From: Oxalobacter sp.
Lineage (GTDB): Bacteria > Pseudomonadota > Gammaproteobacteria > Burkholderiales > Burkholderiaceae_D
Direction: 5' to 3'
Assembly (NCBI GenBank): GCA_017524145.1
Contig: JAFWUI010000047.1
Coordinates: forward strand, 1 to 39,374
Length of the DNA stretch: 39,374 bases
The notes under the pieces were generated by a model. It did not search any database. It had not been told where the DNA came from and saw only the letters and a list, made by a program, of their open reading frames with translations. A program made the translations under genes and the position numbers. Positions 28,981 through 37,580 of this stretch are shown here, piece after piece. The number at the start of each line of letters is the position of its first letter. Positions within the stretch are counted from its first letter, which is position 1.

Positions 28981-30009
28981 TTGCAGACAGCACAAGGTAC
29001 TGGAACCCAGAAGCTGGAACTGGTCTGTCCTGCGGGCAGCCTGCCTGCGCTGAAACAGGCCATTGACCATGGGGCGGATACTGTCTATCTTGGTTTCCGG
29101 GATGCGACCAATGCCCGCAACTTCATGGGCTTGAATTTCAGTGACAGACAGGTCGAAGAAGGCATTGGCTATGCCCATGCGCGGAACCGGAAAGTCCTCC
29201 TTGCCCTCAATACCTATCCATTGCCGGATACGGTCGGCCTCTGGCAGGCGGCTGTTGACCGCGCCGCCCGTCTTGGTGTCGATGCAATGATTACTGCCGA
29301 CCCGGGTTTGATGCGTTATGCCTGTGAAAACCATCCAGGCCTGCGTCTGCATCTCTCGGTACAAGGTTCTGCGACCAATTATGATGCAATCAATTTCTAT
29401 GCAAGGAAGTTCCACATCGCCCGGGTTGTCCTGCCCCGGGTACTGTCGATTGAACAGGTTGAAATGGTTGCAAGGCATACGGACGTTGAACTTGAAGTCT
29501 TCGGTTTTGGCAGTCTCTGTGTCATGGTTGAAGGGCGCTGTGCACTGTCCTCATATGTGACTGGAGATGCACCGAACAATAAAGGTGTCTGTTCTCCGGC
29601 GAAAGCCGTCAAATGGGTTGCCACTGCAGCAGGATTGGAATCCCGGCTCAATGGGGTGTTGGTTGACCGTTATGCAGATGGTGAGAAATCAAGTTATCCG
29701 ACTATCTGCAAAGGACGTTATCAAGTCTGTGGTGAACGCTATTATGCGATTGAAGAACCAGCGAGCCTGAATACTTTGGCACTTTTGCCCAGGCTGAAAC
29801 AGATTGGGGTTTCTGCCATCAAGATAGAAGGGCGCCAACGCAGTCCCGCCTATGTTGCGGCGGTGACAAAGGTCTGGCGGGAGGCATTGGACAGTTGCAA
29901 TGCTGATGCAGGCAGTTATCAAGTCAAACCGGGATGGGATACAGTCCTGGCTAGGCAGTCAGAAGGGCAGCAACAGACGCTTGGAGCCTATTACCGGGCC
30001 TGGAAGTAG
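28981..30009 (+). CDS. ubiU: Oxygen-independent ubiquinone hydroxylation protein UbiU
   Basis: UbiU is a U32-peptidase-like iron-sulphur protein that acts with UbiV to hydroxylate the ubiquinone ring when oxygen is absent. Of the 342 residues, C180, C187, C204 and C243 have the same spacing (7, 17, 39) as the four 4Fe-4S ligands of E. coli UbiU. Other family segments are ELVCPAGSLPALKQAIDHGAD near the N-terminus, HLSVQGSATNYDAINFY, GRCALSSY, and IKIEGRQRSPAYVA. The only start giving the correct N-terminus is TTG at 28981, with AAAGGAG 8 bases upstream; a nearby ATG at 28974 is in another frame. ubiV follows after 21 bp. Confidence 0.93.
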   Translation: MQTAQGTGTQKLELVCPAGSLPALKQAIDHGADTVYLGFRDATNARNFMGLNFSDRQVEEGIGYAHARNRKVLLALNTYPLPDTVGLWQAAVDRAARLGVDAMITADPGLMRYACENHPGLRLHLSVQGSATNYDAINFYARKFHIARVVLPRVLSIEQVEMVARHTDVELEVFGFGSLCVMVEGRCALSSYVTGDAPNNKGVCSPAKAVKWVATAAGLESRLNGVLVDRYADGEKSSYPTICKGRYQVCGERYYAIEEPASLNTLALLPRLKQIGVSAIKIEGRQRSPAYVAAVTKVWREALDSCNADAGSYQVKPGWDTVLARQSEGQQQTLGAYYRAWK

Positions 30010-30030
30010 CATTATGGGAAGGAAGACGCA

Positions 30031-30918
30031 TTGAAACTGGCACTGGGACCTGTGCAGTATTACTGGTCAAAAGACAGGTTGAAGGCTTTCTATGAAGCCA
30101 TTGCACAGTCACCCGTGGATATCATCTATCTGGGTGAGACGGTCTGTTCACGCCGGCATGAAATGCGTGAAGAAGATTGGCTGGCATTGGCAGATATATT
30201 GTCATCGGCAGGAAAGGACGTGGTCTTGTCTACCCAGGTCCTGCTGGAATCCGGTGCCCATCTGAATGCGATGCACCGGATTGTTGGAAATGACCGGTAT
30301 ATGGTTGAGGCCAATGATATGGGGGCTGCAGGATTGTTGGAAGGGACTGGACCGTTTGTAGCGGGTCCCCATCTGAATCTCTATAACCCTGAAGCCTTGC
30401 AGATTGTTGCCGGACTGGGTGCAATGCGGTGGGTCATGCCGTTTGAGATGGGTAAGGACAACCTGCGCCAGATGTTGCCAAGACTGCCGGAAAACATGCA
30501 GTCTGAAGTATTTGTTTATGGGCATCTGCCATTGGCCTATTCAGCAAGATGCTTCACCGCAAGGTATCATAACCTCCAGAAGGACAACTGTGGATTCCGT
30601 TGCCTCGGTTATCCGGATGGGCTTCAGGTCAATACCCAGGAAGACAAGCCTTTCCTTCTGTTCAATGGTATACAGACTCTGTCGGTAAAAGTCTATAATC
30701 TGATTCAACAGATACCGCAGATGATGGCATTGGGAGTGGATGTTGTGCGGATTTCCCCCCAATCAACTGATACTCCGGACATTATCCGCTGTTTCAATGC
30801 AGTTATTGAGAAAAGGCTTTCTCCTTCAGAGGGCATGGCAATCCTTCAGCCTTTGATGCATGGTGAGCCGTGCAATGGTTATTGGCATGGTCTGCCAGGT
30901 ATGGATTGGGTGCCGTGA
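30031..30918 (+). CDS. ubiV: Oxygen-independent ubiquinone hydroxylation protein UbiV
   Basis: UbiV forms a heterodimer with UbiU for anaerobic ring hydroxylation in coenzyme Q synthesis. The 295-residue product starts LALGPVQYYWSKDRL, has IYLGETVCSRR with C39, then GHLPLAYSARCFTARY with C174, and C187 and C191 after it. These match the four cluster cysteines of E. coli UbiV in spacing (13 and 4 for the last three). NGIQTLSVKVYNL, RISPQSTDT and the terminal CNGYWHG are further family marks. The start is a TTG at 30031 with GGAAGGAAG upstream. It sits between ubiU and ubiT in one apparent operon. No clear FNR box was found upstream of ubiU. Confidence 0.93.
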   Translation: MKLALGPVQYYWSKDRLKAFYEAIAQSPVDIIYLGETVCSRRHEMREEDWLALADILSSAGKDVVLSTQVLLESGAHLNAMHRIVGNDRYMVEANDMGAAGLLEGTGPFVAGPHLNLYNPEALQIVAGLGAMRWVMPFEMGKDNLRQMLPRLPENMQSEVFVYGHLPLAYSARCFTARYHNLQKDNCGFRCLGYPDGLQVNTQEDKPFLLFNGIQTLSVKVYNLIQQIPQMMALGVDVVRISPQSTDTPDIIRCFNAVIEKRLSPSEGMAILQPLMHGEPCNGYWHGLPGMDWVP

Positions 30919-30943
30919 CAGACAGGAAACAATAGGAAAAACG

Positions 30944-31432
30944 ATGAACCCGTATAACATCCCCAAACCCATCGGCCAGATTGTCTCCTGTCTGCCGTCT
31001 TGGCCTGGATCGGTGGTTTTTGCCACATTGCTCAACCAGATCCTGAAAGACAGGCTGCCAGAAGATGTTGCTGAAGCCATGCTGGGCAAACAGTTCCGTA
31101 TCGCAGTCACTGATGCTGGTGTCCATTTCAATTTCGCTTGGACAAAAGGAGGTTTTGTCCCTGCTTGGGAGGATGCCGGACCTGACCTGACCATCTCTGC
31201 GAGTGCGCAGGATTTTTACCGGCTGGCGAGGCGGGAAGAAGATCCGGATACCCTGTTTTTCAGCCGCCGTCTTGTCATGGAAGGGGATACCGAATTGGGG
31301 CTGATGATCAAGAATACCCTTGATGCATTGGAACTCAATGTCTTTGAACTCTTGAAAGCATTGCCAGCCCAGAAATTTAAATCGCTGTTCCCGGTTTCAA
31401 TGAAGAAAAGCCGTGAATGGCATAAATCATAG
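30944..31432 (+). CDS. ubiT: UbiT, SCP2-type lipid-binding accessory protein
   Basis: This 162-residue protein has a sterol-carrier-protein-2 (SCP2) domain. In the oxygen-independent pathway UbiT is thought to bind hydrophobic ubiquinone precursors and present them to UbiU-UbiV. Family marks are LLNQILKDRLPEDVAEAMLGK, then FNFAWTKGGFVP, ISASAQDFYRLARREEDPDT (82-101) and FFSRRLVMEGDTELGL, followed by KNTLDALE. The frame opens earlier inside ubiV, but ATG at 30944 with AGGAAAA close upstream gives the expected length (E. coli YhbT, about 174). It lies 25 bp after ubiV. Codons for DPDTLFF form part of a 21-bp near-repeat also found in the following ATPase gene. Confidence 0.9.
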   Translation: MNPYNIPKPIGQIVSCLPSWPGSVVFATLLNQILKDRLPEDVAEAMLGKQFRIAVTDAGVHFNFAWTKGGFVPAWEDAGPDLTISASAQDFYRLARREEDPDTLFFSRRLVMEGDTELGLMIKNTLDALELNVFELLKALPAQKFKSLFPVSMKKSREWHKS

Positions 31433-31611
31433 GAAAAAGGTCTGATTGCCCAATCAATTTCATCACCAGTCAGGTTTTTTCAAAAGGAACCGTTATGCTG
31501 TCATCCTTCAAAGTCCATAATTTCCGTTCAATCCAGAAACTTCATCTCAATCTTTCTTTTGCAGAGAAACGTGCTCCAACAGGATATCAGGATTCGGATA
31601 CCCTGTTTTTC
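31241..31611 (+). repeat. 21-bp near-perfect direct repeat in ubiT and the ATPase gene
   Basis: GAT(C/T)CGGATACCCTGTTTTTC occurs at 31241-31261 and 31591-31611, with one mismatch in 21 bases and exactly 350 bp between copies. Both are in the same codon phase, giving DPDTLFF in UbiT and DSDTLFF in the ATPase. The interval given runs from the first copy to the second. Confidence 0.6.
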
Positions 31612-32817
31612 CTGGAACCTAAGAAAAAGGTCCGGCTGGTACCGACACTGGCACTTTTTGGTTCGAATGCATCGGGCAAATCCAATGTCCTGATGGCATT
31701 GCGGGTGTTTGCCGATTGCGCCTTGATAGGGATACAAGGACAGTTCCATCCAGACAAATTGAATAATCGCGGTAACCCGACCTGTTTTGCAGCAGCGTTT
31801 TCCATCAATGGACAGGATTACCGGTTTGAATTGGAATACAACCGCCAGACTATCCTTAAGGAACAGCTGAAAATTGATGGAAAGGAAATTTACCGGATTG
31901 ATACGGCAGACAGGCATTTCAAGGGGCTTTCATCAATAGCCTATCCAGAAGAGCGGTTGCAGGAAATCCACCGGGTTGAGTGCTGTACCCCGCAGAAGGA
32001 ACAGACAGCGACGTTCCTGTCAATCATCGGGAAACGCTATCAAGGTCTGCATGCAGGAATCACTGCGCTCTGTGAGTACCTGATGGAACGGTTTGTTGTC
32101 TTGAATGACAACAGCATCCATCTGTCCCGAGGGGTCAATGCATTGGCAGCTGTCCTTGCGAATGAACATGAACCAGAACCGCTTAAAAGTGCCTTTGAAC
32201 AGATTACGGCATTGCTGGAAAGCCTTGATATCCATATCAGCCGTATGTCGATGGACCGGACCCGGGTCATGCTGGAACATGACAGGAAAAATTCCCAGGA
32301 ATATCTGGAGGCACCGCCAGAGTTCTATAACCGGATCACCAGTGTGGAGAAAGAAGGCGAGAACATTGTCCTGAACGCAGACAGTATCCGTTCTTTCCAT
32401 CAGGATGCTGAAGGCAATGAAGTCGAATTTGATTTCACGACCGAAGAATCGAGTGGTACCCGGATTGTGGCTGGATTGTTGGGGATATTCCTGTCGGTGC
32501 TGAAGACTGGAGGGATTGTGATTGTCGATGAGTTGGACCGTTCATTGCATCCATTGCTTCTGATTGAACTGGTCAGGCTGTTCAAGGAAAAACGCTACAA
32601 CGGAAACAATGCCCAGCTGATTTTCACTGTCCATAATACGGAAATCCTGGACGTTGATATGTTGAGGGTTTCTGAGGTCGGCATTGTCAGGAAGACCCAG
32701 CAGGATGGCACTGAATTGGTCAGGCTGTCTGATTTTGAAGGGGTCAGCAATCTTGCCAGTTTCAGGGAACTGTACCTGAACGGGCAATTTGCTGGAATAC
32801 CTTTCCCTTATATCTGA
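31495..32817 (+). CDS. AAA-type ATPase of the RloA/AbiLi-like group
   Basis: This 440-residue protein is an ABC/SMC-like AAA ATPase (AAA_15/AAA_21 type), a class often paired with nucleases in phage defence. It begins with SSFKVHNFRSI, the usual strand before the nucleotide site. It has Walker A GSNASGKS (56-63), a signature-like EESSG (317-321), Walker B IVIVDE (341-346) followed by LDRSLHP, and the switch histidine H380 in FTVHNTE. The middle part (about 190-310) is the variable coiled or lid region. AAGGA at 31483-31487 stands 7 bases before the ATG. The RloB-family gene follows after 13 bp, so the two form a unit. It lies 62 bp after ubiT and could be read through from it. The target that triggers it is unknown. 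Confidence 0.8.
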   Translation: MLSSFKVHNFRSIQKLHLNLSFAEKRAPTGYQDSDTLFFLEPKKKVRLVPTLALFGSNASGKSNVLMALRVFADCALIGIQGQFHPDKLNNRGNPTCFAAAFSINGQDYRFELEYNRQTILKEQLKIDGKEIYRIDTADRHFKGLSSIAYPEERLQEIHRVECCTPQKEQTATFLSIIGKRYQGLHAGITALCEYLMERFVVLNDNSIHLSRGVNALAAVLANEHEPEPLKSAFEQITALLESLDIHISRMSMDRTRVMLEHDRKNSQEYLEAPPEFYNRITSVEKEGENIVLNADSIRSFHQDAEGNEVEFDFTTEESSGTRIVAGLLGIFLSVLKTGGIVIVDELDRSLHPLLLIELVRLFKEKRYNGNNAQLIFTVHNTEILDVDMLRVSEVGIVRKTQQDGTELVRLSDFEGVSNLASFRELYLNGQFAGIPFPYI

Positions 32818-32830
32818 ATGGGGTACGGTC

Positions 32831-33475
32831 ATGGCTGAAGCAAGGAAATCCCCTTCATTGTCACAAGTTGTGACAGTTGTCTGTGAGGGGCAGTCCGAGA
32901 ACATGTATCTTCAGGAACTGAACCGTTTTTTCAGGGAATACCGGATTCCCCTGACATTCATCCCGCGTACTGTCGGGAACGGTGCCTATAAGGCGGTTGT
33001 CGGGCATTACCGGAGTATCCGGAAGTACCTGCGCTATGAGGAAATCATTATCTGGGTGGACCTGGACATCTATACAAGCAGCGAAGCCAACAATTATGCT
33101 GGCAAGCCGGAGTCTGTTCCAGATTTCCTCTTCTCTGAGATGAATTTCGAGGATTTCCTGATGCTGCATATGCATCCCCAGCAGGTTTTCAAATGGCAGG
33201 CTGCTGCTGAAAGCCATGACCATTTCCTACATCCGATGCCAGCTGCCGTTTATGTTCCGATTTTCAAGACTTTTGGTTTCCATCATTACCGGAAAGGCAG
33301 GATGCCTTTCAAGCTGAATGCCAAGACATTGGGACAGCTGTTCATCAACCTCCATAACAAGAAAATCCGATTCAAGAATGGATTCGGCTCTTTCTTGGAA
33401 AAACGGCTGCGTGCAATGGGATGGCTGGTTGATGGTGAAGAAAAAGCAGAGTCAGATAATGTTGTGATTGCTTGA
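32831..33475 (+). CDS. RloB-family protein, probable TOPRIM-like nuclease partner
   Basis: This 214-residue protein resembles RloB (restriction-linked ORF B), a family found beside AAA ATPases in restriction and abortive-infection loci. The pattern fits a TOPRIM fold: VVCEGQSE with E19 and E23 (15-23), the acidic pair D77 and D79 in IIIWVDLD, and SEMNFEDFLMLH (102-113), which corresponds to the NPCFE-type motif of other RloB proteins. These residues would bind metal for nucleic-acid cleavage. The frame starts earlier inside the ATPase gene, but ATG at 32831 with GGGG about 8 bases upstream is the best start. It is downstream of and coupled to the ATPase gene. Activity and target are inferred, not shown. 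Confidence 0.75.
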   Translation: MAEARKSPSLSQVVTVVCEGQSENMYLQELNRFFREYRIPLTFIPRTVGNGAYKAVVGHYRSIRKYLRYEEIIIWVDLDIYTSSEANNYAGKPESVPDFLFSEMNFEDFLMLHMHPQQVFKWQAAAESHDHFLHPMPAAVYVPIFKTFGFHHYRKGRMPFKLNAKTLGQLFINLHNKKIRFKNGFGSFLEKRLRAMGWLVDGEEKAESDNVVIA

Positions 33476-33538: not shown

Positions 33539-35884
33539 TTATCGGTCAATTTTCCGCTTCAACGCGGATTCAAGCTGTTCCAGTGCTTTGACCAAGGTTG
33601 CAGCAGGGCAGGCAATGTTGATGCGTTCAAAGTTTTTTCCATCTGATCCGAAAATTTCACCATGATCAAGCCAAAGCCGTGCCTCATTGATGATGAAGTC
33701 ATCCAGGTCTTTGCCTGAAAGCCCTGTTCCAGAAAAATCCAGCCAGATAAGGTAAGTGCCTTCAGGTTCAATCAATTTCACCCCAGGCAACCGTTCTGCC
33801 GTAAATTTCCGGAGGATATCCAGATTGACGGTCAGGTATGCCAGCAGGGCATCGAGCCATGCTTCTCCGCCTTCATATGCCGCTTGGGTGGCAACAAGTC
33901 CCATAGTGTTCATCTGGTCATAACCGGTTGCATTGAGTGATTGCTGGAACTTGGTGCGGATGTTTTTGTTGGGGATGAAGATGTTCGAAACCTGCAGCCC
34001 TGCAATATTGAAAGTCTTGCTGGGAGAGGTGCAGATGATTGCATGGTATTGGTATGCATCCCCCAGTGTGCCATAAGGTGTATAGGTATATCCCGGAAAG
34101 GCGAAATCTGCATGGATTTCATCAGAAATCACCAGAACATGGTGTTTCAGGCAGATGTCTGCCATCGCTGTCAGCTCATCCCGCGTCCAGAGGCGGCCGA
34201 CTGGGTTATGGGGATTGCAGAGGATGAACAGTTTGACATTGTTTTCAATGATTTTCTGTTCGAAGTCCTTCAGGTCAACTCCATAATGTCCGTCCTTGAG
34301 GACCAGGGGGTTATTGACAAGCTTCCGGTTGTTGTCCTTGATAGCCAGGGAAAAGGGATAATAGACTGGTTGCTGGATCAAGATGGCATCCTTGGGTTCT
34401 GTCAGAGCGCGGATAGCCGTACAGATGGCATAGACTACACCAGGGGTTTTGACCAGCCATTCCGCTTTGGGACTCCAGTGATGCCGTCGAGCAAACCAGC
34501 TTTGCACAGCATCAAAATAACCTGATTTCGGTTCAGTATAGCCATAGATGCCGTGCGTAACAGCTTCCTGCAAGGCGGCTGTTACAGAAGGCGGTACCTT
34601 GAAATCCATGTCTGCCACCCATAAAGGCAGGACATCGGCAGGCTTGCCACGTTGGATGGCATAGTCATATTTCAGGGAACCGGTTCCTTTCCGGTCAATG
34701 AGGGTATTGAATCCGAATTCATCCTTTTCAGGGATTTCATCACCCATTGCCTGGGCAAGGTCGGCAATCAGGTCATCAGCATTTTCCAGACCGACAGACA
34801 ACCGCAGCAGGCGGTTGGTGATGCCACGCGCTACCCGTTCTGCTTCAGGGATTGCGCCATGTGTCTGGGTGGTCGGATAGGTGATAAGGGATTCTGTTCC
34901 TCCCAGGCTTTCTGCAAACTGGATCAGCCTGACGCTTTCCAGGATTTGTTTGACGAGATTTTCACCGCCTGCTTCTTCAGCCAGTTCAAAGGAAATCATG
35001 CCACCAAAGCCCTTGGATTGCTTGAGGGTAGTCTGGTACCCAGGATGGTTTTTCAGGCCAGGATAAAAGACTTTTGAGATTTTTGGATTTGTTTCCAACC
35101 AACGGGCGATTTTCAGGGCGGTCTCTTCTTGCCGCCTGACACGGATGGGCAGTGTCTGGATACCCCGCAAGACCAGCCAGCTGTCAAAGGCACCCAATGA
35201 GGCACCGACAGCATTCTGGATATAGTGTAACCGTTCCGACAGTACTTCTGAATCGCAGACCAAAATACCGGCAAGGGTATCATTATGTCCTGCCAGATAT
35301 TTGGTTGCACTGTGCAGGACAATATTCGCTCCCAGTTTGATGGGCTGCTGGTTGACAGGACTCAGGAAAGTATTGTCAACCAGCAGGAGAAGGTTATGCC
35401 GTTTGGTGATTGATGCAATTGCAGCAATATCATTGACGTGCATCAGGGGATTCGTCGGTGTTTCAATGAAAACCGCCTTGGTTTCCGGTCTGATGGCTGC
35501 TTCAATATTGGCAGGGGCGGAGGCATCGACCCAATCAAAGGTCAGCCCGTTTTTCATTGAGAAATTCTGAAAGAGACGCCATGTCCCCCCATACAGGTCA
35601 TCTGAGGAGATGATATGGTCCCCAGGCTGGAAGAGTTCCATCATCGCGGATGCCGCTGCCAGCCCGGAAGAGAAGGCATAGGCAGCCACACCGCCTTCCA
35701 GCCTTGCCATCGTTTCCTGCAGGACACCCCGGGTCGGGTTCATGCCTCGGCTGTAGTCAAAACCGGTGCTTTTGCCAAGTCCAGGATGGGCGTAAGTGGC
35801 AGTCTGGTAAATCGGGGTGGAAATGGCACCGCTGGAATCAGTGCCGACTTTTCCACCATGAATACAGAGGGATTCGATATCCAT
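33539..35884 (-). CDS. Fused cystathionine gamma-synthase/lyase-type and PatB/MalY-type enzyme
   Basis: This single 781-residue reading frame joins two PLP enzymes. Residues 1 to about 383 are a Cys/Met-metabolism enzyme (MetB/MccB family): GFDYSRGMNPTRGVLQE, AFSSGLAA, and the PLP lysine K195 in HSATKYLAGH. Residues from about 392 are a PatB/MalY-type C-S beta-lyase: FNTLIDRKGTGSLKYD, LPLWVADMDFKVP, CNPHNPVGR, SDEIHADF and PLP lysine K623 in TSPSKTFNIAGL. Both lysines are present and almost no linker separates the halves. Successive steps fit well: cystathionine formed by the first half would be split to homocysteine by the second. Gamma-lyase action of the first half cannot be excluded. The gene lies 42 bp after cysK on the same strand. 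Confidence 0.88.
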   Translation of the reverse strand: MDIESLCIHGGKVGTDSSGAISTPIYQTATYAHPGLGKSTGFDYSRGMNPTRGVLQETMARLEGGVAAYAFSSGLAAASAMMELFQPGDHIISSDDLYGGTWRLFQNFSMKNGLTFDWVDASAPANIEAAIRPETKAVFIETPTNPLMHVNDIAAIASITKRHNLLLLVDNTFLSPVNQQPIKLGANIVLHSATKYLAGHNDTLAGILVCDSEVLSERLHYIQNAVGASLGAFDSWLVLRGIQTLPIRVRRQEETALKIARWLETNPKISKVFYPGLKNHPGYQTTLKQSKGFGGMISFELAEEAGGENLVKQILESVRLIQFAESLGGTESLITYPTTQTHGAIPEAERVARGITNRLLRLSVGLENADDLIADLAQAMGDEIPEKDEFGFNTLIDRKGTGSLKYDYAIQRGKPADVLPLWVADMDFKVPPSVTAALQEAVTHGIYGYTEPKSGYFDAVQSWFARRHHWSPKAEWLVKTPGVVYAICTAIRALTEPKDAILIQQPVYYPFSLAIKDNNRKLVNNPLVLKDGHYGVDLKDFEQKIIENNVKLFILCNPHNPVGRLWTRDELTAMADICLKHHVLVISDEIHADFAFPGYTYTPYGTLGDAYQYHAIICTSPSKTFNIAGLQVSNIFIPNKNIRTKFQQSLNATGYDQMNTMGLVATQAAYEGGEAWLDALLAYLTVNLDILRKFTAERLPGVKLIEPEGTYLIWLDFSGTGLSGKDLDDFIINEARLWLDHGEIFGSDGKNFERINIACPAATLVKALEQLESALKRKIDR

Positions 35885-35926: not shown

Positions 35927-36865
35927 TCAATCAGCCGGGAACAGGGCAGTTGACAGATACCGTTCACCATTGTCAGGCAGTAATGCGACAATGACTTTGC
36001 CTTTGTTTTCAGGACGTTTTGCCAGCTGGGTTGCTGCCCACAGGGAGGCACCTGAGGAAATACCGACCAGGACACCTTGGGTATGTGCCAGTGCCTGTGC
36101 GGTTTCAAAAGCAGCTTCATTTGGAACCGGGATGATTTCATCGTAAATCTTGGTGTCCAGGACAGCTGGGACAAAGCCTGCTCCGATACCTTGGATTTTG
36201 TGGGGGCCGGATTTGCCGCCAGACAGGACAGGGGAGGTGGCTGGTTCAACGGCAACCACCTTGATGTTCGGGTTCTGTTCTTTCAGGTAGGAACCTGTGC
36301 CGGTCAGAGTGCCACCGGTGCCGACACCAGCCACGAAGATATCGACTTTGCCATCAGTATCTTTCCAGATTTCTGGACCGGTTGTCTTTTTATGGATGGC
36401 TGGATTTGCCGGATTGTCGAACTGCAGCGGGATGAAGCTGTCAGGAATGGTCTGTGCCAGTTCCTGCGCTTTGGCAATTGCACCTTTCATGCCTTTGGCA
36501 CCTTCGGTCAACACCAGTTCTGCACCATAGCCCTTGATCAGTTTGCGGCGTTCAATACTCATGGTTTCCGGCATTGTAATGATGATGCGGTAACCGCGTG
36601 CAGCAGCAACAGCAGCCAGACCAACACCTGTATTGCCAGAAGTCGGTTCAATGATGGTGGATTTACCAGGGACAAGTCTGCCTTCAGCTTCCGCTGCATC
36701 AATCATTGCTTTGGCGATACGGTCCTTGACACTGCCTGCTGGATTGAAATATTCCAGTTTTGCCAGGATAGTGGCTTCAAGGTTATTGTTTGCAGCATAG
36801 CGGGAAATTTCCAGCAGAGGGGTATTGCCGATCAGGTCTGTTGCATTTTTTGCGATGTTTGCCAT
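35927..36865 (-). CDS. cysK: Cysteine synthase (O-acetylserine sulfhydrylase)
   Basis: This PLP enzyme makes cysteine from O-acetylserine and sulphide in the cytoplasm. The 312-residue product shows [10 protein letters not shown], the PLP lysine in [11 protein letters not shown] (about residue 47), the substrate loop [12 protein letters not shown], the phosphate loop [11 protein letters not shown], and GISSGAS near the end. The length is typical for CysK. A related beta-synthase activity with homocysteine cannot be excluded from sequence alone. AAGGAG lies 8 bases before the ATG. The PLP-fusion gene follows 42 bp downstream and should share its transcript; the Rrf2 regulator gene lies 136 bp upstream on the same strand. 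Confidence 0.95.
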
Positions 36866-37001: not shown

Positions 37002-37436
37002 TCAGATGACATAGCAGCCACCATTGTCTTCACCCTGTTCAAGGAGGTCCTCCAGTGTTGTCCCCTCCAGGTAATCTGTGATGACCTTTGTCAATCCTTC
37101 CCAGAAGTGCACGGTCGGGCAGGTTTCATAGCGTTCACAGGTATTGGGTGATGATTCCAGGCAGGCAACACAGGTGAAGTTTCCCTCAATCGGGCGGAGG
37201 ATATCACCAATGGTGTACTCATGTGGTGCACGCGCTAGACGGTAACCGCCTTGAGATCCCCGGATACTTTGGATCAAACCCGCTTTACCCAAGGCTGATG
37301 CAATCTGTTCCAGATATTTCAAAGAAACATCCTGGCGGATGGAAACATCTTTCAAGGAGAGATACCGGTCTTTGCCATTCTTTGCCAGGTCAATCATGAA
37401 TCGGAGGGCATAACGCCCTTTAGTTGAGATTTTCAT
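37002..37436 (-). CDS. Rrf2-family regulator with IscR-like cysteines
   Basis: This is a 144-residue winged-helix repressor of the Rrf2 family, the group of IscR, NsrR and CymR. The N-terminal MKISTKGRYALRFMIDLA and the SLKYLEQIASAL recognition helix with IRGSQGGYRLAR wing are family hallmarks. Cysteines C89, C92, C100 and C106 plus H110 in the sensor region resemble the Fe-S ligands of IscR-type members, though C92 to C100 is two residues longer than in E. coli IscR. C141 is extra. ATG at 37436 has AAGGA close upstream, and a TATAAT box lies about 50 bp ahead. Its place just before cysK suggests control of cysteine metabolism (a CymR-like role) in response to Fe-S status or thiols. This is an inference. 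Confidence 0.88.
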   Translation of the reverse strand: MKISTKGRYALRFMIDLAKNGKDRYLSLKDVSIRQDVSLKYLEQIASALGKAGLIQSIRGSQGGYRLARAPHEYTIGDILRPIEGNFTCVACLESSPNTCERYETCPTVHFWEGLTKVITDYLEGTTLEDLLEQGEDNGGCYVI

Positions 37437-37485: not shown

Positions 37486-37580
37486 ATTATAGCAATTCCT
37501 ACCGGAAAAATAGGCTTTATTTCCTATAAATGCGCTAGGAATACAAAAAGTGTTGCTTTTATCTCATATCCTAGGGAATT
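37486..37580 (-). promoter_or_regulatory. Promoter of the Rrf2 gene with repeated half-sites
   Basis: Read on the minus strand, a perfect -10 box TATAAT lies at 37486-37491, with a weak -35 region. Four TTCCTA/TAGGAA-type half-sites surround it: AATTCCTA (37494-37501), TTTCCTA (37520-37526), CTAGGAAT (37535-37542) and CCTAGGGAATT (37570-37580). The first lies between -10 and -35, a classical repressor position. This suggests autoregulation. Confidence 0.5.

Follow-up and report, generated by a model that had tools for sequence, protein, structure and literature searches.

A predicted MetI-type/PatB-type fusion enzyme in Oxalobacter as a single-chain candidate for forward trans-sulphuration

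The closest described counterparts of the locus reported here keep their enzymes apart. The metI-metC (metIC) operon of Bacillus carries consecutive genes for a gamma-synthase and a beta-lyase, both of the trans-sulphuration family and serving methionine, and B. subtilis MetI, MetC, MccB and PatB are listed as separate proteins, with CymR control listed for mccA and mccB, the genes of methionine-to-cysteine conversion (PMC6522883). PatB enzymes, which have also been described with cysteine desulfhydrase activity (PMC11203769), and cystalysin are represented among the solved relatives listed by single-enzyme chains of 377-421 residues. Two linked synthase/lyase genes, perhaps SAM-riboswitch-regulated, have been reported in Geobacter (PMC2700814), and multifunctional proteins are described in the sulphate assimilation of oomycetes, where the cystathionine lyases are single genes (PMC2705460). 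Among the top-ranked results of our search of mainly open-access literature, no natural fusion of such a gamma-synthase and beta-lyase was reported.

The locus lies in the window, by which we mean the whole 39,374-nucleotide stretch of Oxalobacter sp. DNA that was analysed. Here a single minus-strand ORF with an ATG start, as given by the ORF list and its translation, encodes one protein of 781 residues. It resembles the metI-metC operon in its predicted pair of consecutive steps and in the MetI motif of its N half, and differs in that both activities would reside in a single polypeptide ending in a PatB-type half. Its C half scores over the TIGR04350 cut-off, like PatB C-S lyases and cystalysin, but those are single-enzyme chains. 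With the Bacillus MccA-MccB reverse trans-sulphuration pair it shares a cysK-family gene beside a PF01053 gene, but the MccB reference has M rather than Q in the motif discussed below and lacks a PatB half. Also close are separate MetI-type and PatB genes of Bacillota and spirochaetes, whose products, in the best 80 loci, are 39-60% identical (mostly more than 50%) to the halves of the fusion; 32 of these loci also contain a cysK-like gene, and 11 an Rrf2 gene. These genes, however, are unfused. The coding features are as follows.

33539..35884, minus strand: fused ORF of 781 aa, read as MetI-type/PatB-type (ORF list, Pfam, NCBIfam, relatives)
34745..35872, minus strand: N half, Cys_Met_Meta_PP, residues 5-380, with the MetI-type motif ESLGGTESLITYPTTQTH (Pfam and motif alignment)
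35300..35302, minus strand: codon of the PLP lysine K195, in HSATKYLAGH (aligned with solved relatives)
34712..34744, minus strand: linker, residues 381-391 (NCBIfam profile ends; 7 residues longer in two relatives)
33557..34711, minus strand: C half, PatB C-S lyase, residues 392-776 (TIGR04350 over cut-off)
34016..34018, minus strand: codon of the PLP lysine K623, in TSPSKTFNIA (aligned with solved relatives)
35927..36865, minus strand: cysK, cysteine synthase A (TIGR01139, 460.5 bits against a cut-off of 350.95), ending 42 bp upstream of the fusion start
37002..37436, minus strand: Rrf2-family regulator, IscR/CymR-like but below both cut-offs, ending -CYVI (Pfam, NCBIfam)

Elsewhere in the window, an AAA_21 ATPase gene followed by that of a RloB-like protein just under the Pfam cut-off forms a defence-like pair at 31495-33475; both genes also occur near the fusion in three relatives, and the ATPase gene alone in a fourth. 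Two Peptidase_U32 proteins and an SCP2-domain protein are encoded in a row at 28981-31432, a trio that we take to resemble ubiU-ubiV-ubiT of oxygen-independent ubiquinone synthesis.

First, the initial annotation had read the ORF as two PLP enzymes from different families in one 781-residue chain, and the Pfam and NCBIfam domains agree. The N half matches Cys_Met_Meta_PP (PF01053) at 487.9 bits against a cut-off of 27 over residues 5-380, and the C half matches Aminotran_1_2 at 156 bits, with its best stretch at 417-770, and the PatB C-S lyase model TIGR04350 at 466 bits against a cut-off of 340 over residues 392-776. Both PLP lysines, claimed to be intact, indeed align with those of solved relatives: K195 in HSATKYLAGH matches the motif of the N-half relatives, including a 'cystathionine gamma-lyase-like protein', K623 in TSPSKTFNIA (PSKTFN) matches that of the C-half relatives, PatB and cystalysin among them, and both are retained in all five fusions known to us from the genus. 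By profile and by its PSKTFN lysine, the C half is a PatB-type C-S lyase with predicted beta-lyase activity. The linker, described earlier as almost none, is short (about 11 residues by the NCBIfam profile ends, with 7 more in two relatives) but not absent, and its length and sequence vary and are poorly conserved across the fusions.

The fusion is genuine. A search of 60 genomes, comprising its own and those of relatives, found it full-length and stop-free in 5 of the 13 genus genomes, namely its own (G000), G010 (89% identity), G004 (82%), G011 (71%) and G003 (70%); the assemblies of G003 and G011 consist of one and two contigs, and the G003 copy lies on a single 2.47 Mb contig. An assembly error or a missed stop is thereby ruled out. 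Pairs among the five fusions differ in 11-33% of residues and in 34-53% of the codons of unchanged residues, with no stop, and since the frame has stayed open in five genomes despite so many silent differences, the junction is not a chance read-through. A sixth genus member, G002, shows the PatB half only, cut by a contig end, and the assemblies of G005 and G009 are 62% and 72% complete.

Second, the direction of the chemistry depends on the type of the N half, which the initial annotation had called MetB/MccB-type. The assignment to the PF01053 trans-sulphuration family holds; the MccB part gives way, on the motif, to MetI. Among the best 25 NCBIfam models listed, none reaches its equivalog cut-off on this half: PRK08247 (MetI-type cystathionine gamma-synthase) gives 479.3 bits, below 585, and PRK07671 (MccB; gamma-lyase/homocysteine desulfhydrase) 472.3 bits, below 594. 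As references we used Bacillus-group proteins from annotated plasmids, on which MetI lies beside metC, homocysteine methyltransferase and metH, and MccB beside cysteine synthase (Priestia); the MetI, MccB and MetC references pass their own cut-offs (PRK08247 at 618.4 bits, PRK07671 at 730.3 bits, and PRK08064, respectively). In the alignment, the motif segment reads ESLGGVESFITYPATQTH in MetI, ESLGAVESLISVPARMTH in MccB and VSLGAVESILSYPSRMSH in MetC. All five fusions read ESLGGTE(S/T)LITYP(T/A)TQTH, sharing YPxxQTH with the MetI reference, and the MccB and MetC references carry M where MetI and the fusions carry Q. This pattern of E with Q is found in 77 of 93 N-type rows, 14 others having M and two falling outside the search expression (L037, in which D replaces the second E and QTH is present, and L095, which seems truncated). 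By the YPxxQTH motif, whose use as a mark of type is our own reading, the N half is most likely MetI-type. In a reference tree of 46 rows chosen by hand, the fusions join clostridial, Veillonellaceae and one Treponema pair genes (96/96), and MccB and MetC belong to another group. The tree is no proof of type, however, since it pairs the MetI reference with Globicatella, apart from the fusions, and its outgroup does not form a single clade.

Third, the pathway context bears on what such an enzyme would do. In G000, G003 and G011, three PF01053 genes each score over the cut-off, encoding the fusion, a MetY type (TIGR01326, 604-608 bits against 495.1) and a separate cystathionine beta-lyase (PRK07050, 571-581 bits against 500), the fusion being the sole gamma-synthase-like gene among the three in the complete G003 and G011 as well as in G000. 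Given MetY, direct sulphydrylation exists beside the route of the fusion, and with the separate beta-lyase also present, neither half is strictly needed in these genomes. A MetX-like protein was found in all eight genus genomes searched, at 445-462 bits, under a cut-off of 500 that no genome of 16 and no control passed, and MetH is over its cut-off in all seven searched. Two separate pairs elsewhere also speak for the forward direction. At L072, a Veillonellaceae contig, a T-box precedes the pair with a specifier that reads AUG by position, a position backed by one control T-box (L047), where it reads AUC before a periplasmic-binding-protein gene (PF13458) that we assign to branched-chain amino-acid transport. 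The pair of Acetobacterium tundrae belongs to a cluster headed by a homoserine O-succinyltransferase-family gene (PF04204, 396 bits), with further PF01053 and cysK-like genes.

We consider it probable that the fusion is a bifunctional forward trans-sulphuration enzyme, a MetI-type gamma-synthase joined to a PatB-type beta-lyase, that carries cysteine to homocysteine. Motif and gene context likewise favor, by inference, the earlier proposal that cysteine and activated homoserine are turned into homocysteine by halves arranged in pathway order. A MetX-like enzyme would make O-acyl-homoserine, and CysK, encoded just upstream, would provide cysteine; from these the N half, as a MetI-type cystathionine gamma-synthase, would form cystathionine, which the C half, as a PatB-type cystathionine beta-lyase, would split into homocysteine, pyruvate and ammonia, leaving MetH to methylate homocysteine to methionine. 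The activities, their direction, regulation and transfer are what we infer from such comparisons. Each of the two chemical steps is most likely ordinary.

Alternatively, the protein could be a sulphur-scavenging pair of C-S lyases, in which the N half acts as a gamma-lyase on cystathionine or homocysteine and the C half as a beta-lyase or cysteine desulfhydrase, while CysK re-fixes the sulphide and sulphur thereby flows to cysteine. The PRK07671 score of the N half, within 7 bits of that of its best model, would suit such a role, as would the control of mccA and mccB by CymR in Bacillus (PMC6522883), but the N-half motif is MetI-type and not MccB-type, and the fusion clade lies outside the clade with the MccB and MetC references. 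Also in favor of this role, MetY already offers a route to homocysteine, and all five fusion genomes keep cysK adjacent to the fusion, in the order rrf2, cysK, fusion on one strand. Against the role stands what sister species carry in the same slot of the rrf2-cysK group. In G001, the slot holds two genes that overlap by 4 bp: a MetI-type one, for which the top NCBIfam models are PRK07671 and next PRK08247, and a MetC-type one, for which the top model is PRK08064, every score lying under its cut-off. In G006 and G007 the slot holds a MetY-type gene (TIGR01326, 615.4 and 611.5 bits against 495.1), and each of these sets would also make homocysteine. At the same group, G008 has a MetI-type gene on the opposite strand, and the PF01053 gene of G012, where its contig ends, is partial. 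On balance, we regard the scavenging role as unlikely.

Two further explanations have much less to recommend them. It is very improbable that one half has been kept for folding, oligomerisation or regulation with only the other catalytic: E. coli MalY does have a regulatory role besides its lyase activity (PMC11203769), but both PLP lysines are kept in all five fusions, across which both halves are about 70% identical or more (lowest 69.9%). Hardly more credible is that two separate proteins are made, through an internal start or proteolysis of the linker, and that the fusion has no functional meaning, for although an ATG at the linker (Met381) could start the C half in four of the five fusions and the linker sequence is poorly conserved, the joined frame is kept in five genomes, and the G010 copy (L008) has no ATG, GTG or TTG in alignment columns 380-452, which makes a separately started, complete C half unlikely there.

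Fourth, the region upstream of the regulator gene holds a -10-like site and two palindromes, which may link the operon to sulphur supply.

37486..37491, minus strand: TATAAT, -10-like (read from the sequence)
37496..37514, minus strand: operator-like palindrome CCTA-N9-TAGGAA beside the -10-like site (sequence comparison)
37521..37541, minus strand: second, upstream palindrome TTCCTA-N9-TAGGAA, exact (pattern search)

CCTA-N9-TAGG lies upstream of rrf2 in all five fusion genomes, adjoining TATAAT in four and TAATAAT in G004. The exact form TTCCTA-N9-TAGGAA has six sites in the 13 genus genomes, against about 1.3 expected from the base composition of the window, and every one of the six lies at a sulphur operon. 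In G000, G003 and G011 the site precedes rrf2, and in G001 the MetI-type gene; G010 has two, one ahead of a substrate-binding protein gene that a MetY-type gene follows, the other ahead of a CysM-like operon. Ten further sites carry one mismatch, and the two examined (G000 C12:6331 and G010 C3:25671) are at such operons. With one mismatch allowed, the 16 sites compare with 121 for the control, the pattern read backwards; the motif is therefore not frequent against its control, and the case rests on where the sites are located. A looser pattern has three matches in the window, one site being counted on each strand, where chance would give 1.03; three matches were also attained in 12 of 100 shuffles. 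The palindrome is a likely Rrf2 operator, through which the regulator, first in the operon, would probably switch the operon with sulphur supply. As for other genes near such sites, the CysM-like operon (L181 6378-12752 in the own genome; L180 5097-11467) encodes a CysM-like synthase, JAB and ThiF-rhodanese proteins, a family 2A encapsulin shell with a cysteine desulfurase cargo, and a hexapeptide protein that by eye is a serine acetyltransferase; a palindrome heads it, with one mismatch in the own genome. The palindrome also lies upstream of a gene group (L180 721-4789) whose products are an NMT1-like binding protein, a MetY-type enzyme, a DMSP-lyase-like cupin and one protein that has no Pfam match.

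The Rrf2 protein scores 117.1 bits against the CymR model NF047409 (cut-off 195) and 124.8 bits against that of IscR (cut-off 207.55). CysE is anchored in CysK by an isoleucine at its C terminus, and CymR has been counted with such partners of CysK (PMC12895370; PMC4961446); CymR has also been described with CysK (PMC2940859). In our set, 13 of 28 Rrf2 rows have a terminal isoleucine. All 13 are among the 22 rows whose locus has a cysK-like gene, and the six rows from loci that lack one, some of them short, contribute none; the last residue is a different one in two fusion genomes (G003 and G011) and in G001, G006 and G007. In L027, L051, L145 and L071 the pair is directly preceded by a second Rrf2 type, 33-40% identical, with a -FYI or -FFI end, and the Rrf2 before the pair in L148 ends -LNL. 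It is conceivable, if quite doubtful, that the MetI-type and PatB-type sites form one assembly and pass cystathionine directly, with no free intermediate, and that Rrf2 reads the sulphur state through CysK; if so, cysteine sulphur would be committed to methionine without release on the way. Control of the pair by a SAM riboswitch was considered and set aside: a scan of 24 of the 80 pair loci found none, and in the window no Rfam match reached the gathering score.

Fifth, how widespread is the fusion? The survey suggested with the initial annotation was carried out within stated cut-offs and found it in this genus only. In the family, it occurs in 5 of 392 genomes, all five among the 13 of the genus and none among the 379 other members (E <= 1e-130), the sixth match being the half in G002. 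In its own phylum, only its own genome matched among 398 (E <= 1e-120). In the phylum of Acetobacterium, 25 of 398 genomes matched (E <= 1e-130), with no fusion among the matches listed, of which the four longest cross one to three stops and the others are single halves; in that of Treponema, 6 of 392 matched (E <= 1e-150), all with one or two stops and none fused. The family and phylum searches scored the two best candidates per genome, and distant fusions would escape these cut-offs. A GTDB scan confirmed at least 593 loci, and the best 80, analysed for gene arrangement, include no fusion: 54 have the N-type then the C-type gene adjacent on one strand, seven the reverse order, one the two genes further apart, 17 the C-type gene alone and one the N-type gene alone. 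The frames are parted by a single stop codon in 14 of the 54 adjacent pairs (L027 and L043 included), so the step to a fusion is small. A shared frame, considered as a sign of programmed read-through in the separate pairs, is no commoner than chance would give, at 19 of the 54 against an expected third. So far as searched, the fusion is confined to one genus, Oxalobacter-like in that 12 of 13 genomes have an oxalyl-CoA decarboxylase over cut-off, against 1 of 14 controls.

Where, then, did the two halves come from? Nearest to both are clostridial pair genes, at best 57-60% identical for the N half and 57-59% for the C half, and in the trees, N-type genes from genus members that lack the fusion, and from other relatives, are placed elsewhere. 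The N tree used 93 of 106 rows and the C tree 88 of 104, 16 loci (mostly Lachnospiraceae) having been dropped by hand; a long-branched Globicatella row falls with the fusions in the 93-row N tree and with the MetI reference in the 46-row tree. CysK is 72% identical to that of L027, a Clostridiaceae contig with Rrf2, cysK and both genes, and equally so to that of G008 in the same genus, and cysK alone therefore does not tell the origin. A plasmid of Treponema saccharophilum likewise holds cysK, Rrf2 and both separate genes together. The simplest, and most likely, reading is transfer followed by fusion: a cassette common among Bacillota and found in spirochaetes as well would have entered the ancestor of part of the genus, after which its two neighbouring genes would have fused.

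Finally, the fusion is a natural protein in which cystathionine gamma-synthase and beta-lyase may be united in one chain, and a test case for whether flux, or the release of the intermediate, changes once consecutive trans-sulphuration steps are joined. It also presents a two-gene cassette that has become fused within one genus, where sister species fill the same operon with MetI- plus MetC-type genes or with a MetY-type gene, and the operon itself may be a starting point for studying how Oxalobacter-like bacteria control sulphur.
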